The notes under the pieces were generated by a model. It saw only the letters and a program-made list of their open reading frames with translations, ran no database searches and had not been told where the DNA came from. The position numbers were made by a program, and so were the translations under genes. From the NCBI GenBank assembly GCA_027021085.1, contig JALUVB010000148.1, positions 1 to 9,079 of the forward strand: a DNA stretch of 9,079 bases, written 5' to 3'. This document shows, piece by piece, positions 336 through 9,022 of this stretch; positions within the stretch are counted from its first letter, which is position 1; every line of letters starts with the position of its first letter. Source of the DNA: a bacterium (GTDB lineage Bacteria; CAIJMQ01; JAADFP01).

Positions 336-1535
336 ATGGAGAGTGTATTACTTTTCCGGCGCAAGGAATACCCGGTAAGAAGGGAAAATGCATTTCTTCT
401 CAGGGCTGTTTCACCGCTTAAAAGAGAATTTACAGATACCGATGGGCTGGACTGGGAATATATCTACCGCAATGCCTGCCAGCACAGGGTTTCCGGAATT
501 GTTTATAACCGCATAAAAGCAACCCCTTCCCTACTCCATTCCATACCTCCCCTGTACCTGGGGAGGTTTGCCCGGGGAAAAAGAGAGATACTGCAACACA
601 ACGAAGCCCTGCTGCAGGAATTCCTAACTCTCCACCAGGAGTTAAAAAAGCTACAGGTGGAAATAATTCCCATAAAGGGAATGCTTCTTCTCAAGCACAT
701 CTTCCACGACTTATCCCTGCGCCCCCTATCGGATATTGATATTTTAATCCGGGAGGAGGATTATCCGCGGGTAAAGGATTTCCTCCTGCATTACGGCTAC
801 TCCCTGCTCCTGGAAAGGCGCAAAGAGAGTTACTGGAGAAGACACCAGTGCCATGTAAAATTCTCCCGCCGGATAAATTCCCGAAAAATATTACTGGAAG
901 TTCACTGGACATTCCTTCCTCCCCGTCCCTATCCAGTCTCGCTTTCCTCTCTATGGAAAAGGCTACAGGTTACTCACTGGGAAGGGGGAAAAATACTCAT
1001 TCCCTCTCCTGAAGATATATTCATTCTCACTTTTTCCCATATATACCTGCACCTTCGCTTCATCCCTTTACGGATAATCCACGATTTTTCCTGGCTTACC
1101 CTGCACTTCAAAGATATCTATGACTGGGAGTATATATGGCAGGAAACAGCGGCGAATCACCTGGAAAACATCCTCTACTTCTGCCATCTGGTGGCTCAGG
1201 AATTGCTTTCCCTCTCTTACTTTCCTCTAAGAGAAAAATTAAACAGGCAAAGTTTGAAAACCGTTTTACTTCGCCAACTTCCTTTAAGGGAGCTGGTTTT
1301 CCCCCTGCGTTCCTCTTCCTTAAGGAAGAATGAGTTTATTCTCCGCCATCTTTTGTCCGGAGCCAACGGAGCAATGCTTCGCTATTTCCTTTTCCCGCCC
1401 CGGGAAGAAGTAACAAGATTTTTCACCCTCCCCTCCTCTTCCTGGCAATCCGGGGTGGCATACCACCTGCGTTTTCTTTATTTACCCCTCTGGGCTTTCT
1501 GGCAGGTAGTGAAAGGAGGCAAAGATTCCGGTTAG
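336..1535 (+). CDS. Nucleotidyltransferase family protein (NTP_transf_5 type)
   Basis: This 399-residue cytosolic protein has the hallmark of the uncharacterised NTP_transf_5 family. I-P-I-K-G (111-115) is followed by L-R-P-L-S-D-I-D-I-L (128-137), where Asp133 and Asp135 form the D-x-D metal site of the polymerase-beta fold; E-V-H-W (188-191) supplies the probable third acidic residue. The rest is helical with many aromatic and basic residues, and the length is normal for the family. Its substrate is unknown. Homologues occur in glycan clusters and in some lasso-peptide clusters; I recall PsmN of the pseudomycoidin cluster, reported to act after a kinase to add hexoses to the peptide. There is no clear Shine-Dalgarno, so the ATG at 336 is probable, not certain. 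The 3' end holds the ribosome binding site of the next gene and overlaps it slightly if that gene starts at 1525. Confidence 0.85.
   Translation: MESVLLFRRKEYPVRRENAFLLRAVSPLKREFTDTDGLDWEYIYRNACQHRVSGIVYNRIKATPSLLHSIPPLYLGRFARGKREILQHNEALLQEFLTLHQELKKLQVEIIPIKGMLLLKHIFHDLSLRPLSDIDILIREEDYPRVKDFLLHYGYSLLLERRKESYWRRHQCHVKFSRRINSRKILLEVHWTFLPPRPYPVSLSSLWKRLQVTHWEGGKILIPSPEDIFILTFSHIYLHLRFIPLRIIHDFSWLTLHFKDIYDWEYIWQETAANHLENILYFCHLVAQELLSLSYFPLREKLNRQSLKTVLLRQLPLRELVFPLRSSSLRKNEFILRHLLSGANGAMLRYFLFPPREEVTRFFTLPSSSWQSGVAYHLRFLYLPLWAFWQVVKGGKDSG
1512..1519 (+). promoter_or_regulatory. Strong Shine-Dalgarno that points to an AUU start for the GT4 gene
   Basis: AAAGGAGG lies inside the end of the nucleotidyltransferase gene. 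Five bases separate it from ATT at 1525. The first standard start codon, GTG at 1543, is 23 nt away, too far for this site. An in-frame TGA at 1510-1512 closes the frame upstream, and no ATG, GTG, TTG or CTG lies between it and 1543. Confidence 0.6.
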
Positions 1536-2625
1536 AATTTCCGTGATAGGCTCACGCGGCATACCCGCACAATACAGCGGAGTAGAAAGAGTTATTGAAG
1601 AAGTGTGTAAAAGGCTTGGAGATAAGGGATACGAATTCTCTGTATACGGGTGGAGGCAATATGCCCGTGCGCAAGGCTCCCTGCCTTCCTCCCTGAAACT
1701 TTTTTACCTGCCCACACTGTCTTTTCGCTACCTGGGGACACCGGTAAATACGCTTCTCTCCATTTTTCATGCCCAGATGCAGGGCGTGGATATTATTCAT
1801 CTCCATTCTCTCAGCCCTGCTTTCTTCTCCTTTCTTCCCCGTCTTTTCGGTAAGAAATGCGTGGTAACCATCCATGCCCTGGACTGGAAGAGAAAAAAGT
1901 GGGGATGGATAGGAAAATTACTGCTTCGCTTAGGAGAGCTATCTGCCATGATTTTCGCTCACCAGGTGGTAGTAGTCTCACACAGCATAAAAAACTACTA
2001 CGAAAAAAGCTACCGCAGGAAAATTATTTTTATCCCCAATGGAGTAAGCAGCAAGGAAAAAGCTCCCCCTTCCGATGCACTGGATAAATTCGGACTTACT
2101 CCCGGAGCTTACCTGCTTTTTGTGGGGAGAATAGTTCCGGAGAAAGGGCCCCATTATCTTATTACTGCCTTCAAAGAGGCTGGCCTGGAGACAGACCTGG
2201 CAATAGTGGGAAAACCGAGTTTCACCCACAGCTATCTTCGCTACCTGAGAAAAATCTCCCCTCCCCGGGTGAAATTCCTGGGCGAGGTAAGAGGAGAAAG
2301 CCTGCATGCCCTCTATGCTTATGCCTCCCTATTCGTGCTACCTTCGGATGTAGAAGGATGTCCCTTATCCCTGCTGGAAGCACTTTCCTGGGGAACACCT
2401 GTGCTTACCAGTGATATTCCCGAATGCAGGGAGATTGTAAGAGAAATCGGGCATACATTCCCGGGCGGAGATAGAAAAGAATTAAGAAAAAAGATAGAAG
2501 TCCTTATTAAAAAAAACACAGGGGAAGGGGAGAAGAAGAAAATAAGAGAGGAAATAAGGCAGAGATACTCCTGGGATAAATTAAGCAGAGAATGGGAAAA
2601 AGTTTACCAATCCCTAATATCATGA
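1525..2625 (+). CDS. Glycosyltransferase family 4 (GT-B fold), probable AUU start
   Basis: A retaining, nucleotide-sugar-dependent glycosyltransferase of about 366 residues, probably acting at the cytosolic membrane face on a lipid-linked or cell-surface glycan. The N-terminus reads R-I-S-V-I-G-S-R-G-I-P-A-Q-Y-S-G-V-E-R, like the DUF1972/rhamnosyltransferase-type GT4 enzymes in which a conserved first strand leads into a Gly loop. Counting from the GTG at 1543, F-V-G-R-I-V-P-E-K-G is at 193-202 and the C-terminal E-x7-E motif is Glu271...Glu279 within E-G-C-P-L-S-L-L-E, the GT4 donor-sugar signature. Starting at GTG 1543 would remove most of the first strand, while ATT at 1525 has a perfectly placed AAAGGAGG; hence the start given. 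If AUU is wrong, the gene is 1543-2625. The donor sugar cannot be told. It overlaps the nucleotidyltransferase gene by 11 nt and the GT39 gene by 4 nt (ATGA). Confidence 0.88.
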   Translation: MPVRISVIGSRGIPAQYSGVERVIEEVCKRLGDKGYEFSVYGWRQYARAQGSLPSSLKLFYLPTLSFRYLGTPVNTLLSIFHAQMQGVDIIHLHSLSPAFFSFLPRLFGKKCVVTIHALDWKRKKWGWIGKLLLRLGELSAMIFAHQVVVVSHSIKNYYEKSYRRKIIFIPNGVSSKEKAPPSDALDKFGLTPGAYLLFVGRIVPEKGPHYLITAFKEAGLETDLAIVGKPSFTHSYLRYLRKISPPRVKFLGEVRGESLHALYAYASLFVLPSDVEGCPLSLLEALSWGTPVLTSDIPECREIVREIGHTFPGGDRKELRKKIEVLIKKNTGEGEKKKIREEIRQRYSWDKLSREWEKVYQSLIS

Positions 2626-4451
2626 ATATTAGTAACAGGAAGAAATACATTATGGCACTTTTTGGGCTGGGGGCCCTTCTCTTCCTGGGAAACATTTTCT
2701 GGATAATTAAAGACAGAACCCCTCTTCTCTACGACAGTTACTGGAACTTCCTTCTCAGCCTGAAATTGTTCCAGGGCATTAAAAGCGGTAGTCTTTCGGA
2801 AATCCACCGCATAATCTCCTATTACAGAATCCCTTTTCTCATCCCTCTCATTGCTACTCCCTTTTACTTTATTTCGGGAATCAACCAGGATATGGCAGTA
2901 ATAGCAGGCAGCACCCTCACCTTAGGAATCCTGCTTTTCTCTCTCTTCAAACTGGGGGAGGAGATATCCGGGTACCGGGCTGGCTTCTGGAGTGTATTCG
3001 TATTTCTGATGTATCCCCTGGTATTTACCCAACAGAGAACGTTTATGATGGATTTGCCTCTCACTGCTTTTATTTCCCTGTCTATCTACCTGCTTATAAA
3101 AAGCGGAGAAGTCCCCCGCTCCTCTTCCGCAGGTGAAACTTCCCCTCACATTATCCCGGAAACAGTTCAGCACCAGAACAGAGATTTTACCAGACTACGA
3201 TTCTCTCTGCTTTTTGCTGTCGTATTCGTACTTGGCTTACTGATTAAGGTAAACTTTATTCTTTTCGTGCTTCCTCCCTTATTGTGGATGGGGATGAAAA
3301 GGTGGAAAGAATGGAAGCTAAGAAACAAGCTCATTCTTCTTGTCCTGCTGTTTACAGGTATTTTATTTTTTTTCTTCTTTTTCCTCGGCACGGGGGAAAG
3401 CGGGAAAGCATGGACCTCTTTCATAAAAAGAGGCATGTTGGGAAAAGAATACTGGATATATCTTGTTAAAAATACTTTCTTGCTGGTAAGCGAAGGAACA
3501 AGCTTCTTTTTTGCCCTGATTTTCCTGGCAGCATTTTCATCTTACCGCCGGATTCCCTTGAAACATCGCGATGTGCTCGCCCTGTGGTTCTTCCCCGCTT
3601 TTTTCCTGCTCACCTTTTTCCGGGTAGATAGAAGGATTTTCCTCCCCCTTCTTCCCGTCCTGGCCCTGGTAAGCGGTGCAGGGATAGCGAGCCTGAAGAG
3701 AGGAAAGCTACGCGGTTTAATTCTAAGCCTGGTATTACTGGTAGGAGGCATTCAATACTTTGCCATTTCTTTTGGCCTGGATTTTCTTCCCCTTAGCATC
3801 ACGCTCAACGAATACCCGGTGGAAAAATCAGAGAAGATGCCTTTTACCCGCGGCCTGCTGCACCTCACCCTGTTCACCCAGATAGTCAACATACCTCCCA
3901 ACCCCTTACAGTTTTCCCATCCCTCTCCCTACGACTGGAAGGGTAAGGAAATGTTTGAGCTCATAAAAAGCAGGGGAAAAGAAAACAGCAGGGTAGTTAT
4001 TCTGAGCAAAAGAAAAGATATATGGATGCTTATCCACTATTACTCTTCCCGCCAGAATTTCCCCCTGGAGATATGGAGCCTGGATGGCAGTCCCCTTCTG
4101 TACGAGATAAAGGGCTGGGAGAAAAACGGGGAACAGGAAATCTCCCTGCTGGGAAACTTTCTTCCCCTATTTGAAAAGGCAGATTTCATCATCAGAGAAA
4201 CCAGCAAAGAGGAGAAAGTTGATAAATTCCCCAACCAATATGCCCGGGAACTCTACCAGAGACAGGAGAAAACCAGGAGAATGATAGAGGAGAGTGATGA
4301 AGAAGTATATCCCCAGCTGATAAAAAAGCTGCAGAAAATAAACGACTGGATAGATAAAAAATCTTCCTTCAAACCGATTAAAGAAATCTTGCTACCTGAC
4401 CACACCCATCTCCAGATTCTGATGCGGCAGAATTTGGTGAACAGTAAATAG
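2622..4451 (+). CDS. Multi-spanning membrane glycosyltransferase, GT39/PMT_2 (ArnT-like)
   Basis: An integral membrane protein of 609 residues with a GT-C layout. A basic N-terminal stretch (N-R-K-K) precedes a first membrane helix (about 11-29), then a periplasmic loop with D38-S-Y-W, where the catalytic acid of the family is expected. Around ten more hydrophobic segments follow, including F-M-M-D-L-P-L-T-A-F (141-150). A late loop, V-D-R-R-I-F-L-P-L-L-P, resembles the R-x-x-x-P-x-x-P segment of PMT_2 proteins. Such enzymes move a sugar from a polyprenyl-phosphate carrier to a lipid, glycan or protein outside the membrane. About 200 soluble residues form the C-terminus. A Ser/Pro-rich insert (about 164-188) looks like a flexible cytosolic loop. 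The ATG at 2622 overlaps the GT4 stop as ATGA; an in-frame ATG at 2592 and one at 2652 are alternatives. The stop codon lies inside a tandem repeat. Confidence 0.85.
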   Translation: MNISNRKKYIMALFGLGALLFLGNIFWIIKDRTPLLYDSYWNFLLSLKLFQGIKSGSLSEIHRIISYYRIPFLIPLIATPFYFISGINQDMAVIAGSTLTLGILLFSLFKLGEEISGYRAGFWSVFVFLMYPLVFTQQRTFMMDLPLTAFISLSIYLLIKSGEVPRSSSAGETSPHIIPETVQHQNRDFTRLRFSLLFAVVFVLGLLIKVNFILFVLPPLLWMGMKRWKEWKLRNKLILLVLLFTGILFFFFFFLGTGESGKAWTSFIKRGMLGKEYWIYLVKNTFLLVSEGTSFFFALIFLAAFSSYRRIPLKHRDVLALWFFPAFFLLTFFRVDRRIFLPLLPVLALVSGAGIASLKRGKLRGLILSLVLLVGGIQYFAISFGLDFLPLSITLNEYPVEKSEKMPFTRGLLHLTLFTQIVNIPPNPLQFSHPSPYDWKGKEMFELIKSRGKENSRVVILSKRKDIWMLIHYYSSRQNFPLEIWSLDGSPLLYEIKGWEKNGEQEISLLGNFLPLFEKADFIIRETSKEEKVDKFPNQYARELYQRQEKTRRMIEESDEEVYPQLIKKLQKINDWIDKKSSFKPIKEILLPDHTHLQILMRQNLVNSK

Positions 4452-4464
4452 TGAACAATGAATA
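4437..4464 (+). repeat. Tandem pair of 14-nt repeats at the end of the GT39 gene
   Basis: Two adjacent copies, 4437-4450 and 4451-4464, share the consensus GTGAACARTRAATA and differ at two positions. A partial third copy (GTGA) begins at 4465. The first copy covers the last codons of the membrane glycosyltransferase, and the TAG stop spans the junction (4449-4451). The role is unknown; such strings look like slippage-generated spacer DNA. Confidence 0.75.
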
Positions 4465-4473
4465 GTGACTTGG

Positions 4474-4514
4474 TATCCTGGTGGCCTGGTAATCCTGGTA
4501 TCTCGGTATCCTGG
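4474..4514 (+). repeat. Five degenerate 8-9-nt tandem units in the convergent spacer
   Basis: Five units related to TATCCTGG run head to tail at 4474-4481, 4482-4489, 4490-4498, 4499-4506 and 4507-4514. The first and last are identical and the middle three each carry changes. The units lie between the two convergent gene sets and encode nothing plausible. A simple-repeat spacer from replication slippage is the plainest reading. Confidence 0.7.
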
Positions 4515-4571
4515 AAGCAAGCAGGCAGAACAGCAGCTGAACCAGCTCCTATGAGGCAGGAGAAAGTCTAT

Positions 4572-4799
4572 TTACTGCGCTCCTGGAGAACCTGCTCCGC
4601 ATCCTCCGCCGGTAGCCGCAGCACCAGGGTAGCATCCTCCACCCGTGGCCGCAGAGCCGGCATAACATCCCCCTGTACCGGAAGCACTGGACCCCGAGGT
4701 GCAAGCTGCGGCCAACGCGTCTGCCTGGCCAATATTTTCCCCTAATTCGACGATAGCGGGAGGGACATAATCGGAACCGTCTTTCCCCCTCTTACCCAT
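4572..4799 (-). CDS. Candidate RiPP precursor peptide with four C-x-x-G repeats
   Basis: A 75-residue peptide, last in the minus-strand operon, probably the substrate of the enzymes encoded before it. The leader (about 1-32) is polar and carries Y11-V-P-P14-A-I16-V-E-L-G20, matching the Y-x-x-P-x-L/I-x-x-x-G pattern bound by PqqD-like domains in lasso-peptide leaders. Next comes A28-L-A30, then the first Cys. The core is almost only Gly, Ala, Ser, Thr, Cys, Tyr and Pro: C33-T-S-G, C45-Y-A-G, C56-Y-P-G and C67-G-A-G, spaced 12, 11 and 11, with T-G-G or T-G-G-G before the last three Cys. It has no signal peptide or membrane segment. The ATG at 4799 follows AGGAGG by 5 nt, the clearest ribosome site on this strand. 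I recognise no named precursor family. Thioether or other Cys-centred crosslinks by the SPASM enzymes are inferred. Confidence 0.82.
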   Translation of the reverse strand: MGKRGKDGSDYVPPAIVELGENIGQADALAAACTSGSSASGTGGCYAGSAATGGGCYPGAAATGGGCGAGSPGAQ

Positions 4800-4801
4800 A
4801 T

Positions 4802-5773
4802 TTACCTCCTATTCTCCAGTAAACACTCCACTTTTTCCCAGCAGAGTTTTTCCCCTGTAAAACAAATTGCATAAGCAGGAATTGCGCTGAATACTTCTCC
4901 GCATAAATTAAAGGCCAACCTGCACATATGATTTGTATTATATCTCAGACATTGCACAAAATGCAAAAGAGTCTTTCCCATGGCCTCACCCGGCGTGAGC
5001 TTAATAGGAGCCCCTTCTTTCTTGAGGAAAAAAACTACCTTTAAAGGGTAATGGTGCAGGTAACTATCTTCTTTTACAGTCTTTGCCCAGGTATTTTGTC
5101 GCCAGGGTGAGCCAAAAACGTGCAATTCTCCTTTTATCTTTCTCACCACCACCCCATCATCTGCCAGTAATCCCTCCCCCTTGCGAGAGCGGGATATAGT
5201 GGTCTTCCCACCCCGGGAAGGAGCTAAAAATACATAGCCTGCTCCCTTGTGATGAAATCCGGCCCCATGCAAAATCACTCCCTGAAAAGATGGGAAAAGA
5301 ATGGAACAGGCAAAATACAAGCCAGCCTCCAGACTGCGGGACAAAGGAGGAGCGCTTGCAAGATTAATAAAATATCTTGCCACATTGTGAGCAGTATCCA
5401 CTATCACCACACCACCGTGGGTTATTTGGATAGAGAATTTCCCTTTTGCCTGCTGTTGCAAAACCTCCCGGAAAGAAGCTAAAGAAAGAAAAGAAGTAAG
5501 ATAGAGTGTATCCTGCAAAGCCTTTTTCTCGGGATTGCTTTCCCGGGGAAACTTGTTGTAAATATCCAGGAAATACTCGTAAACCGGCTCCAGCAAAGAG
5601 GGCACCTCGCCTCTCTCTCTGGCAGGTTTTTTCATTCCGTTTATTTCCATAACTATCCCGGGAGCAGAGGGAGGAGATACGTAACCGTGAAATATGCGGG
5701 AGAGCTCCTTTTGAGGAAAATCATCCAGGTCAGACTTAATCCGGATGGTAACTCCGCCTATATTTACATACAT
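4802..5773 (-). CDS. HPr-kinase-like P-loop protein, candidate peptide kinase
   Basis: A 323-residue protein whose second half matches the HPr kinase/PEP-carboxykinase-like P-loop fold. H-G-A-G (169-172) precedes the Walker A loop A184-P-S-R-G-G-K190-T-T, and L-L-A-D-D-G-V-V-V (202-210) supplies the paired Asp residues. The first Walker A residue is Ala, not Gly, a mild departure. The N-terminal half (I-G-G-V-T-I-R-I...) is like that of the stand-alone HPrK-like proteins found with PqqD genes. In lasso clusters a homologue (PadeK of paeninodin) phosphorylates a precursor Ser; by analogy this one may act on the Ser/Thr-rich peptide encoded next, but that is inference. The ATG at 5773 is chosen because it forms a TGATG overlap with the radical SAM gene before it; the same frame can be read upstream to 5890, but that extra stretch is the shadow of the SAM gene. 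The precursor starts 2 nt beyond its stop. Confidence 0.82.
   Translation of the reverse strand: MYVNIGGVTIRIKSDLDDFPQKELSRIFHGYVSPPSAPGIVMEINGMKKPARERGEVPSLLEPVYEYFLDIYNKFPRESNPEKKALQDTLYLTSFLSLASFREVLQQQAKGKFSIQITHGGVVIVDTAHNVARYFINLASAPPLSRSLEAGLYFACSILFPSFQGVILHGAGFHHKGAGYVFLAPSRGGKTTISRSRKGEGLLADDGVVVRKIKGELHVFGSPWRQNTWAKTVKEDSYLHHYPLKVVFFLKKEGAPIKLTPGEAMGKTLLHFVQCLRYNTNHMCRLAFNLCGEVFSAIPAYAICFTGEKLCWEKVECLLENRR
4805..4810 (-). promoter_or_regulatory. Ribosome binding site of the precursor peptide
   Basis: On the minus strand AGGAGG is followed by TAAAT and the ATG at 4799-4797. The site is built into the last sense codons of the kinase-like gene, just ahead of its TAA (4804-4802). It is the best Shine-Dalgarno in the operon; most other genes there rely on overlapping stop/start codons. 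This suits high output of a small substrate peptide relative to its enzymes. Confidence 0.8.
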
Positions 5774-6810
5774 CAGACAAGCCGCGTGAGGGGAAAGATT
5801 CCTTCCCGGTAAGCCTGCTCGCACAACCAGAAAGGAGCAGTCAGTCTTTCTGTCCTTAAAAAAGCCTCTGCCCGACAGAAGCCCAGGCAAAAGGATTTAA
5901 AGATACATTTGCCGCATACCCCTTCCAACTTTCCGGGAATGCTTTCCCTCATCTCTTTTAATAAGGGAGAATCATGCCAGATATCTTTAATGCTTATTTC
6001 CCCTATTTTTCCCATTACCAGTTCTTTTATCCCGGAACCTATCCCACATATAGATACCCGGGAATCAGGAAGAATACCCAGGATATGATGAATAAGACAC
6101 CTCTGGTTTCCCCTGGTGCGCAGGCTGTCTACCGGCCAGAAAGCAAAAGGAATATGCCAGAAAACTCCGGCATACTTTGCATACCGCTGGAAGAGCGAAA
6201 GAATCTCTCCTGCACTCAGTAACTGGTTCTCTTCTTTCAACTCTTTTCCTCTTCCCATGGGCAAAACAGGGGTAAACTTGAGGATTTCTACCCCCAGGGA
6301 CTGGGAAAGAGAAATGATATCCTCTATCTCGCCCATATTACCCCGGTGAAGAGCACACACCAGAGATACTGGAATCCCCTGCTCCACCAGCAAGCGTATT
6401 CCTGCCAGAGTGCCCTGGAAACTCCCCTCTCTTCCCCTGAATCCGTCATGAGTAGCAGGGTTAGCCCCATCCAGGCTTATAGAGACACTGTAAACACCCA
6501 GTCGGTAGAGGTCACTTGTTATTCCTTTGTTTATCATGGTTCCATTTGTCTCCAGTCTCACCCCCAGCCCTAATGCGCGTATTTCTTCTATAAGCTTTAT
6601 CAGGGTAGGTTCGCAGAAAGGCTCTCCCCCGGTAATTTTTACGCTTCTGAGCCCCAGAGGAAGTGCCTTCTCAATCTCTGAGATAAGGATTTTCTGGTCT
6701 ATTTCTTCCTGGTTTCCCTCGGGCGGAATCCAGCAATGCGCACACGAGAGGTTACAGCGATAAGTCAAGTAAAGATATATTTCCCGCAGGGGTGGAATTC
6801 TATTCTGCAT
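5773..6810 (-). CDS. Radical SAM/SPASM peptide-modifying enzyme (second in operon)
   Basis: A 345-residue cytosolic iron-sulfur enzyme. C19-N-L-S-C23-A-H-C26 is the C-x3-C-x2-C motif that binds the SAM-cleaving 4Fe-4S cluster, and T-G-G-E-P (60-64) binds SAM. The C-terminal SPASM domain shows seven Cys: C238, C255, then C299-x2-C302-x5-C308-x3-C312-x17-C330, the full set expected for two auxiliary clusters. G-E-I-S-I-K-D-I-W (270-278) is the usual SPASM segment before the last Cys group. Enzymes of this layout make thioether or C-C crosslinks, or other radical changes, in ribosomal peptides. It clearly differs in sequence from the other SPASM enzyme in this operon, so the two probably do different jobs. 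The ATG at 6810 has no strong ribosome site. Its TGA overlaps the kinase-like ATG by one base. Confidence 0.9.
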   Translation of the reverse strand: MQNRIPPLREIYLYLTYRCNLSCAHCWIPPEGNQEEIDQKILISEIEKALPLGLRSVKITGGEPFCEPTLIKLIEEIRALGLGVRLETNGTMINKGITSDLYRLGVYSVSISLDGANPATHDGFRGREGSFQGTLAGIRLLVEQGIPVSLVCALHRGNMGEIEDIISLSQSLGVEILKFTPVLPMGRGKELKEENQLLSAGEILSLFQRYAKYAGVFWHIPFAFWPVDSLRTRGNQRCLIHHILGILPDSRVSICGIGSGIKELVMGKIGEISIKDIWHDSPLLKEMRESIPGKLEGVCGKCIFKSFCLGFCRAEAFLRTERLTAPFWLCEQAYREGIFPLTRLV

Positions 6811-6967: not shown

Positions 6968-8065
6968 CTAAAGGCTCCCGCCCGCAGACCTGCCAGCCCG
7001 CTTTATCCCTGCATCAGGATTGGCTATCCAACAAAAAGGGTCAGGGTACTTGAATGCTCCGTAGGAGTAATAAGCTGAAGCGCGACAACCTGCATTACAA
7101 ACATCCCTGCGGGAGCAATCTTTACACAGGGGAATCTGTTCCAGGGAAATATCCGGCAAGCTTCTTATTTCCCGCAACACAGGGGAATTATGCCAGACCT
7201 CACTGAAACCTTTTTCTTTAATATTTCCTGCCTTCACATCGGGCATGGCATCGCAGGGAATCACCGAACCATCCGCCATTATGCCCGCTACCGTAACCCC
7301 TGCGCTGCAAGCTTGTAGTTTACCACCCCTTACCGGCACGGGAATTTCTGCACTTTCCAGAATCTTTGCCCAGTAGAGGAAACTTCCGGTGATAAAAGAG
7401 GGGAAATCCCTGTTCAGGGAAATTACGGTCTCCAAAAGCTGTTTTCTTTCCCTGGCTTGCAGAGCCAGATGATTTTTGTATTCGCCGGCTCTTCCCGTCA
7501 TTACCAGGGGACAAAGCTCCACACTCAACCCTCCCCACTCCATACAACGGTGCACCACCTGCGGAATATCTGCAATATTCAACCTGGTTACCACACAGAA
7601 AAAACGAAAAGGTATGCCTTCGCTGCGAAGATTATCCACCGCTTTTCTCACTCTCTCAAATGTTCCCTTTCCCCGCAGAGCATCGTGGGTCCGGGGAGAG
7701 GAGCCATCCAGCCCTATCTGGATATGACGCAATTTCAGGTTGTTTTCAAGCATTGATTTGATTGAAAGCACCAGCGGACGCTTCAAAAGTGTTCCATTGG
7801 TATTAATTGAAACAGTAAAATGAGAGTCAGCAATATTTTCCAGGAGCACGGGGAAATCCTTTCTGAACAGGGGCTCTCCCCCCGTTAAGTTTAAGCGAAA
7901 TACCTTGATTCTCCTGAGTTCGGCAAAAAGAGAAAGCCACTCCTGAGTAGTAAGCTCTCCCCCTGCCGAGCAGGAGGAGGAAACAATACAGTGTTTGCAG
8001 GTAAGATTACAGCGATTGGTCAGCCGGATGGCAACAAGAAAAGGGGCAGAGGGATAATTAAGCAT
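6968..8065 (-). CDS. Radical SAM/SPASM peptide-modifying enzyme (first in operon)
   Basis: A 365-residue iron-sulfur enzyme with C19-N-L-T-C23-K-H-C26 for the radical SAM cluster and T-G-G-E-P at 61-65. The SPASM domain is textbook: C253-x12-G266-x4-C271, then C314-x2-C317-x5-C323-x3-C327-x17-C345, seven Cys for two auxiliary clusters. G-N-I-K-E-K-G-F-S-E-V-W (280-291) links the two groups. Cys30-region residues just after the SAM motif are S-S-S-C-S, so Cys32 is an extra Cys near the cluster. The family modifies ribosomal peptides; the likely substrate is the Cys-repeat peptide encoded last in the operon, delivered by the PqqD proteins encoded just before. The start at 8065 overlaps the PqqD gene by 8 nt, which suggests coupled translation. 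The C-terminal tail after C345 is basic and Gly-rich. Confidence 0.9.
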   Translation of the reverse strand: MLNYPSAPFLVAIRLTNRCNLTCKHCIVSSSCSAGGELTTQEWLSLFAELRRIKVFRLNLTGGEPLFRKDFPVLLENIADSHFTVSINTNGTLLKRPLVLSIKSMLENNLKLRHIQIGLDGSSPRTHDALRGKGTFERVRKAVDNLRSEGIPFRFFCVVTRLNIADIPQVVHRCMEWGGLSVELCPLVMTGRAGEYKNHLALQARERKQLLETVISLNRDFPSFITGSFLYWAKILESAEIPVPVRGGKLQACSAGVTVAGIMADGSVIPCDAMPDVKAGNIKEKGFSEVWHNSPVLREIRSLPDISLEQIPLCKDCSRRDVCNAGCRASAYYSYGAFKYPDPFCWIANPDAGIKRAGRSAGGSL

Positions 8066-8330
8066 TATTCACAATCAGCAGGTTTCTTTTCAGCAGGGAG
8101 CCTATGAAACTTTTTACGTCTTTTCCCAGGCTCTCTTTCCCTACCTCAGGGAAAACTTCCTCTAATTTGCCTATTATTATCTCTTCCGAAAGAGGCTCTT
8201 TACACCATTCCCATATATAACAGGCTACCTGGTTTAAAAGATAGAGACGGTCTTCTCCCGGATGAAAAAGGAAAGCATCTTCCCCCTCCTGCCGATAAAC
8301 CACCTCTGGGTTTTGCCGGTAATATCTCAT
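8058..8330 (-). CDS. PqqD-family peptide chaperone (RiPP recognition element)
   Basis: A 90-residue protein with the PqqD winged-helix layout. The first strands contain the pattern F-L-F-H-P-G-E-D-R-L-Y-L-L-N (20-33), in which a hydrophobic strand, an acidic turn and L-L-N lead into A-C-Y-I-W-E-W (36-42). This is followed by helices with E-E-x-I-I-x-K-L-E-E-V-F and a final F-I-G-S-L-L-K-R-N-L-L-I. Such proteins bind the leader of a precursor peptide and present it to the radical SAM partner, whose gene overlaps this one by 8 nt. It starts inside the stop of the protease fusion (ATGA at 8330-8327). The role is well supported by family and context, though pairing with this particular precursor is inferred. 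It is not pqqD of PQQ synthesis: no other pqq gene is near. Confidence 0.88.
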   Translation of the reverse strand: MRYYRQNPEVVYRQEGEDAFLFHPGEDRLYLLNQVACYIWEWCKEPLSEEIIIGKLEEVFPEVGKESLGKDVKSFIGSLLKRNLLIVNNA

Positions 8331-9022
8331 TTAATTTTCCCCGGGTAGGCTAACAACGCAAAAAACCTTCTTCTCAGTCCCTTCATTTTCTTCTTCCAGC
8401 CTTTATCCCCAAAGGAAGAGAAGATTCTGTGCAAGATAACAATCAAGTTCCAGCGGAGACTTCCGGGAGCCAGAAAGCATTCCCCATCCAGAGAAACTCC
8501 CACCACTTTTCCCACAAATTCTTCCTTTTTAACCACCTCGCTGGTAGGATTGCCATCGCCACGCGTAACTAAAAATTCTCTGCCTTCTTCATCCTGCCCT
8601 TTTCCAAGTAATCTATGCACTATCCTTGCCCCTTTTCTCTTAAAGATTATCACATCTCCTGCTTCCAGTTCATCAATGCTAATTTCTTTAATTCTCAATA
8701 TTGCTCCGTCCGGCAGGAAAGGATGCATGCTGTATCCCTTAAGATTCACCTCGCTGGTAGCATCCTGCCGGATGATTCCCTTTCTCCGCAGAAAATCTTT
8801 TAACCTGCTTATATCACTCCCTGCCCTTTTTTTGCTTATCCTGAATTCCTCCTGCAGATTATCTGCGATTCTATCTTCATCCGCTCCCTGTTCCAGCCCC
8901 TTCCAGATTAAAGCCGCAGTGGAGTTAAGCAGGTAGGGGATATTGGTCTTTAAATCAAAAATTACGCTTTCTCCCGGGAAATCCCACTTAATCACCTCCG
9001 AAGAAAGCTCAGTCATATCCAT
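8327..9022 (-). CDS. PqqD domain fused to an S26 signal-peptidase-like serine protease
   Basis: A 231-residue fusion. Residues about 10-85 form a PqqD-like domain (S-V-I-F-D-L-K-T-N-I-P-Y-L-L-N at 19-33, then T-A-A-L-I-W and helices). Residues about 93-177 resemble signal peptidase I: G-Y-S98-M-H-P carries the nucleophile, then A-G-D-V-I-I-F (121-127), I-V-H136-R and T-R-G-D-G-N (153-158). His where bacterial enzymes have Lys is the archaeal/ER-type (S26B) pattern. There is no N-terminal membrane anchor. The C-terminus has a short hydrophobic stretch (about 191-203) followed by a very basic tail, perhaps for loose membrane contact. Joining a leader-binding domain to a protease suggests it removes the precursor leader; the A-x-A before the first core Cys suits signal-peptidase specificity. 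The ATG at 9022 lacks a Shine-Dalgarno; a second ATG lies two codons later. Confidence 0.85.
   Translation of the reverse strand: MDMTELSSEVIKWDFPGESVIFDLKTNIPYLLNSTAALIWKGLEQGADEDRIADNLQEEFRISKKRAGSDISRLKDFLRRKGIIRQDATSEVNLKGYSMHPFLPDGAILRIKEISIDELEAGDVIIFKRKGARIVHRLLGKGQDEEGREFLVTRGDGNPTSEVVKKEEFVGKVVGVSLDGECFLAPGSLRWNLIVILHRIFSSFGDKGWKKKMKGLRRRFFALLAYPGKIK

Follow-up and report, generated by a model that had tools for sequence, protein, structure and literature searches.

The closest annotated counterpart of the locus described here is SynChlorMet, which is already known as an annotation family and is represented in NCBIfam by models for ScmA and ScmC-F (TIGR04248-TIGR04252). Its gene set combines a precursor peptide with an HprK-like protein (ScmC), a PqqD protein (ScmD), ScmE and ScmF. 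Searches of a mainly open-access literature returned neither a mention of SynChlorMet or TIGR04249-TIGR04252 nor any paper joining radical SAM enzymes with CxxG in a precursor peptide. Other described systems share part of these features. Ranthipeptides with repeated Cx3D units, such as freyrasin, carry one ring per motif, made by a SPASM enzyme with an Asp side chain as acceptor, and in sactipeptides a radical-SAM/SPASM maturase adjoins a Cys-containing precursor. Streptosactin (GggA/GggB), a 14-residue product of streptococci with two rings made by one enzyme, has unnested sactionine rings, the second of which is closed by a Cys31-Gly34 bond from sulfur to alpha carbon and is thus a C-x-x-G ring (PMC8172795). 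In the systems of Bacillota that make linear polyphosphorylated peptides (LPP; LppA, K, B, S, D, N), an archaeal-type signal peptidase cuts off the leader with the help of an RRE, and discrete RREs bind a [Y/W]xxP motif (PMC13381572). In both LPP and paeninodin-type systems, the latter making phosphorylated lasso peptides, an HprK-like kinase phosphorylates a core Ser (PMC13381572, PMC9266682).

The window that we analysed is a stretch of 9,079 nucleotides of bacterial DNA whose minus strand carries a tight operon running from 9022 downward. It codes for a fusion of a PqqD domain with an archaeal-type S26 signal peptidase (8327..9022; TIGR02228 above cut-off, PF05402), a PqqD-type, ScmD-like peptide-binding protein (8058..8330; PF05402, 47 bits), two radical SAM/SPASM enzymes, one ScmE-like (6968..8065) and the other ScmF-like (5773..6810), an HprK-like, ScmC-like kinase (4802..5773) and, as the last gene, a ScmA-like precursor peptide (4572..4799). 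The contig stops at 9079, and further genes ahead of the operon may exist. Domain and family profile matches thus bear out the flanking genes named in the initial annotation. All five members of the SynChlorMet gene set occur in this operon, as in most of its relatives, and SynChlorMet is the best family for both radical-SAM enzymes, for the small PqqD protein and, weakly, for the kinase. Nevertheless, the scores stay below the equivalog cut-offs for ScmF (TIGR04251; 291 of 400 bits), ScmE (TIGR04250; 198 of 400), ScmD (30 of 100) and ScmC (TIGR04249; 23 of 125), and the PqqD-S26 fusion is a further difference from SynChlorMet. Even with E values up to 1 allowed, the ScmA model (TIGR04252; 49 residues, cut-off 35 bits) gave no match to the window peptide; at the same limit it matches 11 of 25 related precursors, the Chlorobium one (L120) with 21.8 of the 35 bits. 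Pfam and PADLOC searches assigned the precursor to no family. Since the window proteins score below the cut-offs while all 14 compared relatives match the ScmF model (best E 5e-180), the window cassette belongs with SynChlorMet as a divergent branch. The peptide had initially been called undescribed-looking and without a named class, which is in part too strong because the SynChlorMet models are close; the part that stands is that the window proteins fall below those models' cut-offs and that the ScmA model does not match.

Both SPASM enzymes contain the motifs of SPASM peptide maturases and, in the alignment of 14 ScmF sequences, the CxxxCxxC radical-SAM motif and seven SPASM cysteines are invariant. 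In the HprK-like protein, a P-loop and a DD motif are present and kept in most relatives, and a confident structure model shows the HprK/PEPCK fold. Its gene starts at the ATG at 5773, overlapping the ScmF stop; a TTG at 5890 was discarded as start because the orthologue in a same-genus genome, G001, has a stop upstream of the ATG equivalent to 5773. Ser98, His136 and Asp156 are all present in the S26 domain and form a triad conserved across 52 aligned sequences and of the same Ser/His/Asp type as that of LppS (PMC13381572), so that the fusion, also found in three relatives, is predicted to be the leader peptidase. On the opposite strand, the plus-strand region 336-4451 converges with the operon and holds a PF14907 nucleotidyltransferase (336..1535), a GT4 glycosyltransferase and a mannosyltransferase-like membrane protein; the first of these is possibly associated with the cassette. 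Several relatives are also flanked by polysaccharide genes, like LPP clusters (PMC13381572). Between the two convergent operons, at 4437-4520, lie a short AT-rich 14-nt tandem repeat and a run of CCAGGATACC-like words.

The precursor ORF (4799 to 4572) begins with an ATG 2 nt past the kinase gene, has the strongest ribosome-binding site of the operon (AGGAGGT) and codes for 75 amino acids, MGKRGKDGSDYVPPAIVELGENIGQADALAAACTSGSSASGTGGCYAGSAATGGGCYPGAAATGGGCGAGSPGAQ. Scans with promoter and terminator consensus sequences around this gene found neither. The leader, YVPPAIVELGENIGQADA, includes the motif YVPPAIVELGE (Y-x-x-P-x5-L-G; 4737..4769, minus strand), a candidate PqqD/RRE binding site. Aligned precursor leaders read K-x-x-Y-E-x-P-x3-D-L-G, with an invariant Pro and the Tyr in at least 90%, and the window leader has YxxP alone in common with the LPP consensus YxxPxVLxHQxIxFETxxS. 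The core (4572..4703, minus strand) contains the units CTSG, CYAG, CYPG and CGAG with a periodicity of about 33 nt, and its DNA includes a 33-nt tandem repeat at 4600-4670 in step with them. Translation of the ORF reproduces exactly the pattern that had drawn attention to this peptide, namely four cysteines (33, 45, 56 and 67) that all lie in C-x-x-G, with spacings of 12, 11 and 11. On its own, this arrangement would arise by chance with P = 0.016 when the Cys positions are fixed, a mild improbability that reflects the Gly-rich core, and the claim therefore needs relatives. When a rigid or solenoid-like repeat structure was looked for with AlphaFold, run on the window peptide with 27 relatives, no confident fold emerged, and the core had no predicted fold of its own (pLDDT 57, pTM 0.20).

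The same-genus genome G001 has the same gene order, with ScmF 85% and the HprK-like protein 81% identical. In the co-linear parts of the two precursor genes, 23 codon differences are synonymous and six non-synonymous, one of these six in the core, which points to purifying selection on the peptide sequence. The G001 precursor (L003 1202-1495, minus strand, on contig C6) lacks 5 nt between units 2 and 3 and is frame-shifted there; beyond the gap it leads to the GAGSPGAQ end of the window peptide in a different frame. Both halves are otherwise conserved, and the shift may reflect either decay or an assembly error. The window genome and its sister also contain a second, different cassette (G000 contig C239, L042 5464-11177, minus strand; G001 contig C114, L043 6190-11912, plus strand) with PqqD, three radical-SAM, HprK-like and PF14907-like genes and a precursor of 67-69 amino acids (MKRKYTEPVVKVVKLNPEQAVLQHC...) that lacks C-x-x-G.

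The relatives are numerous and widespread. A profile built from the 14-sequence ScmF alignment found 80 loci which, after removal of one repeat (L108, of L029) and addition of 14 other loci, gave 93 loci spanning many bacterial phyla and methanogens. ScmF loci occur in Methanothrix, Methanospirillum, Syntrophaceae, Desulfobacteraceae, Omnitrophota, Aminicenantes, Anaerolineae, Fermentibacteria, Chlorobium, Bacteroidales, Riflebacteria, Nitrospirae and others, and peptides that share the unit come from methanogens, Desulfobacterota, Omnitrophota, Chloroflexota, Acidobacteriota and others. The precursor profile matches in 75 of the 93 loci and a weaker but recognisable peptide is found in four more (L036, L047, L058, L070). 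Homologous C-x-x-G peptides thus adjoin homologous enzyme sets at about 79 of the 93 loci, strongly supporting the initial proposal of a RiPP precursor, and several of the loci without such a peptide are cut off by contig ends. Where the context is full, with 3.5 kb or more on either flank (45 loci), exactly one ScmE and one ScmF are present in 40, and a C-x2-3-G peptide accompanies 39 of these 40 but only one of the five ScmF-only loci, counts that include four weak peptides accepted by eye after a first tally. HprK-like, PqqD, S26 and PF14907 proteins are found in 41, 36, 33 and 31 of the 45, respectively. ATPases of the ABC-transporter type lie near 42 of 85 loci, a loose count, such genes being common. 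Four ScmF-only loci (L034, L054, L060, L092) have neither ScmE nor a nearby C-x-x-G peptide and possibly represent another use of ScmF-like enzymes.

Across 386 genomes, the precursor profile gave 15 matches, 12 in the 13 ScmF genomes and three, weak or low-complexity, in the other 373 (Fisher 3e-19, or 1.5e-10 without the profile-building genomes and the sister genome). The missed ScmF genome, G193, has a two-unit peptide beside ScmF (locus L036). That the ORF should code for a Gly-rich structural repeat protein or have arisen by chance, instead of coding for a substrate, is hardly credible: its low-complexity core and the chance value of the four units would be compatible with this, but it is contradicted already by these co-occurrence data, with a tight link to the cassette across phyla, and also by the purifying selection and the lack of a predicted fold. 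Judging from these sequence comparisons, the window peptide is almost certainly the precursor of the ScmE/ScmF-like enzyme pair.

The units themselves follow a simple code. In 78 related precursors, the window peptide included, Gly stands at +3 from 414 of the 437 core cysteines; the other 23 comprise 22 with Gly at +4, of which 15 read C-x-P-x-G. At one position or the other, Gly thus follows 436 of the 437, which places C-x-x-G beyond chance, although nearly all of these precursors were picked for at least three C-x-x-G and the Gly percentage is biased upward. When precursors were picked by the leader motif only, the same two peaks appeared, with a Gly frequency of 0.50 at +3 against a background of 0.12. 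A third conserved column is position +6, with Ala in 45% and Pro in 22% (1.32 bits) and some tolerance of Val, Asp and Phe; the last window unit, CGAGSPG, has neither Ala nor Pro there. Positions +1 and +2 are unconserved, and +4 and +5 highly variable. As read from the alignments, the unit code is C-x(2,3)-G-x-x-[AP], the last position being less strict. Cysteine spacing peaks at 10-11, and the number of cysteines per precursor ranges from 2 to 20, being odd in 47 precursors and even in 33. One Cys per unit and the more frequent odd counts favour independent units over Cys-Cys pairs, and disulfide ladders were judged unlikely on the same odd counts. This regularity suggests that each C-x2-3-G unit very probably receives one modification. 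The longest member seen, of 236 residues (L040 3026-3736, plus strand), has about 20 cysteines, nearly all in C-x-x-G.

What this modification might be can be approached from the conserved residues and from the enzymes. A Cys/Tyr-centred crosslink, one of the two options initially put forward, finds no support, Tyr making up only 1.9% of the core residues in the 78 precursors and +1 and +2 being unconserved. The other option, small rings in a chain, each closed by a thioether between Cys and a backbone carbon close by, is plausible by analogy with known thioether peptides. By its unit code and the streptosactin precedent, we tentatively take the bond to join the Cys sulfur to the Gly alpha carbon. 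An alpha-carbon acceptor would fit an invariant residue, Gly, that has no side chain, in contrast with the Asp of the Cx3D ranthipeptides, which otherwise resemble the window peptide in their repeated Cys motif and SPASM enzyme; the C-x-P-x-G variant fits a ring one residue larger. The window peptide shares C-x-x-G with streptosactin but differs in its number of units and enzymes and in its accompanying PqqD, kinase and S26 set. It likewise shares with sactipeptides a maturase adjoining a Cys-containing precursor, and a bond of their kind is suggested here by the code and by streptosactin. We do not rate a Cys-Gly bond more highly because two radical-SAM enzymes exceed the need of one bond type and the Ala/Pro preference three residues past Gly is left unexplained; Gly may be needed for a turn or for recognition and not as bond acceptor.

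The nearest solved structures to the window radical-SAM enzymes include the sactisynthase SkfB and PqqE, as well as others that we take to be SuiB and the thioether enzyme CteB (entry 5wgg), with anSME among the more distant relatives. CteB-type SPASM enzymes form bonds to beta or gamma carbons. A thioether with another acceptor, either such a carbon, as in ranthipeptides, or the Ala/Pro at +6, with Gly shaping the turn, would account for that third conserved column as well as for the proximity of CteB. We regard it as unlikely, since Gly is almost universal while +6 accepts five different residues, and +4 and +5 are too variable for acceptors. Radical-SAM chemistry that forms no Cys-Gly bond, such as formylglycine formation as by anSME, epimerisation or a C-C bond, possibly with the enzymes acting in sequence, would agree with the conservation of two distinct SPASM enzymes together in most full-context loci and with the distant relationship to anSME, which also targets a C-x-P/A motif. 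Such chemistry is improbable: for formylglycine, the Arg of the sulfatase motif is missing, the universal Gly would have no role in the reaction, and the best NCBIfam matches are ScmE and ScmF, not anSME.

The remaining genes of the cassette recall other peptides. The window shares with LPP clusters an SpI-type peptidase, an RRE, an HprK-like kinase, an NTP transferase (here on the opposite strand), a YxxP leader and a polysaccharide-gene neighbourhood (PMC13381572). Paeninodin-type peptides have in common with it a PqqD-like B1, an HprK-like kinase, a nucleotidyltransferase in some cases and a [Y/W]xxP leader; by contrast, the macrolactam cyclase (C) and B2 protease of lasso systems are absent from the window (up to 9079), which has radical-SAM enzymes instead. 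The product could then be conceived as an LPP- or paeninodin-like linear peptide, phosphorylated or glycosylated, whose Cys units merely form disulfides or bind metal. In line with this, the four processing proteins common to LPP clusters (HprK-like, RRE, S26 and PF14907; PMC13381572) are present in most full-context loci. Such a product is nonetheless highly unlikely, as no radical-SAM enzyme or C-x-x-G core is reported for LPP, whose cores are variable (PMC13381572), whereas the C-x-x-G code tracks the ScmE/ScmF pair and odd Cys numbers prevail.

We therefore come back to Cys-to-Gly thioether rings made by a divergent SynChlorMet-type cassette, with the window ORF as its RiPP precursor, as the best explanation as a whole and on balance a probable one. 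The comparative evidence strongly supports its being a precursor, its link to both enzymes and the unit code; which bond is made, how the two enzymes share the work, in what order the steps run and what the product does are inferences. The PqqD domains would hold the Y-x-x-P leader and hand the precursor to the ScmE-like and ScmF-like enzymes, which would carry out one modification at every C-x(2,3)-G unit, most likely a thioether that ties the sulfur of the Cys to the Gly alpha carbon at +3 (or +4). Unnested rings of four or five residues would in this way line a Gly/Ser/Thr/Ala chain, and the PqqD-S26 fusion would then cut off the leader. The peptide may also be phosphorylated or decorated by the HprK-like kinase, perhaps together with the PF14907 enzyme. 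Phosphorylation is possible since kinases of this kind act on a core Ser in LPP and paeninodin-type pathways; in the cores of the 78 precursors, no Ser or Thr proved strictly conserved. A bolder and more doubtful proposal is that ScmE and ScmF together mark out a RiPP class, widespread among anaerobes and methanogens, in which the code C-x(2,3)-G-x-x-[AP] directs a modification new to peptides (or a two-step one, on Cys, Gly and +6), repeated between 2 and about 20 times along each chain and possibly accompanied by phosphorylation.

Beyond the existing annotation, what is new here is the breadth of the family, its near-universal unit code and its tie to LPP-type processing. The family is far larger than the single existing precursor model, ScmA, suggests, and the near-invariant C-x(2,3)-G unit gives an uncharacterised radical-SAM pair a substrate code that is simple and can be tested directly. 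Because the cassette joins radical-SAM chemistry to LPP-type kinase and signal-peptidase machinery, its product could carry phosphate in addition to several ring units. The window gene codes for the raw peptide of a widespread natural-product family, in which two radical-SAM enzymes probably make one ring per Cys-x-x-Gly.
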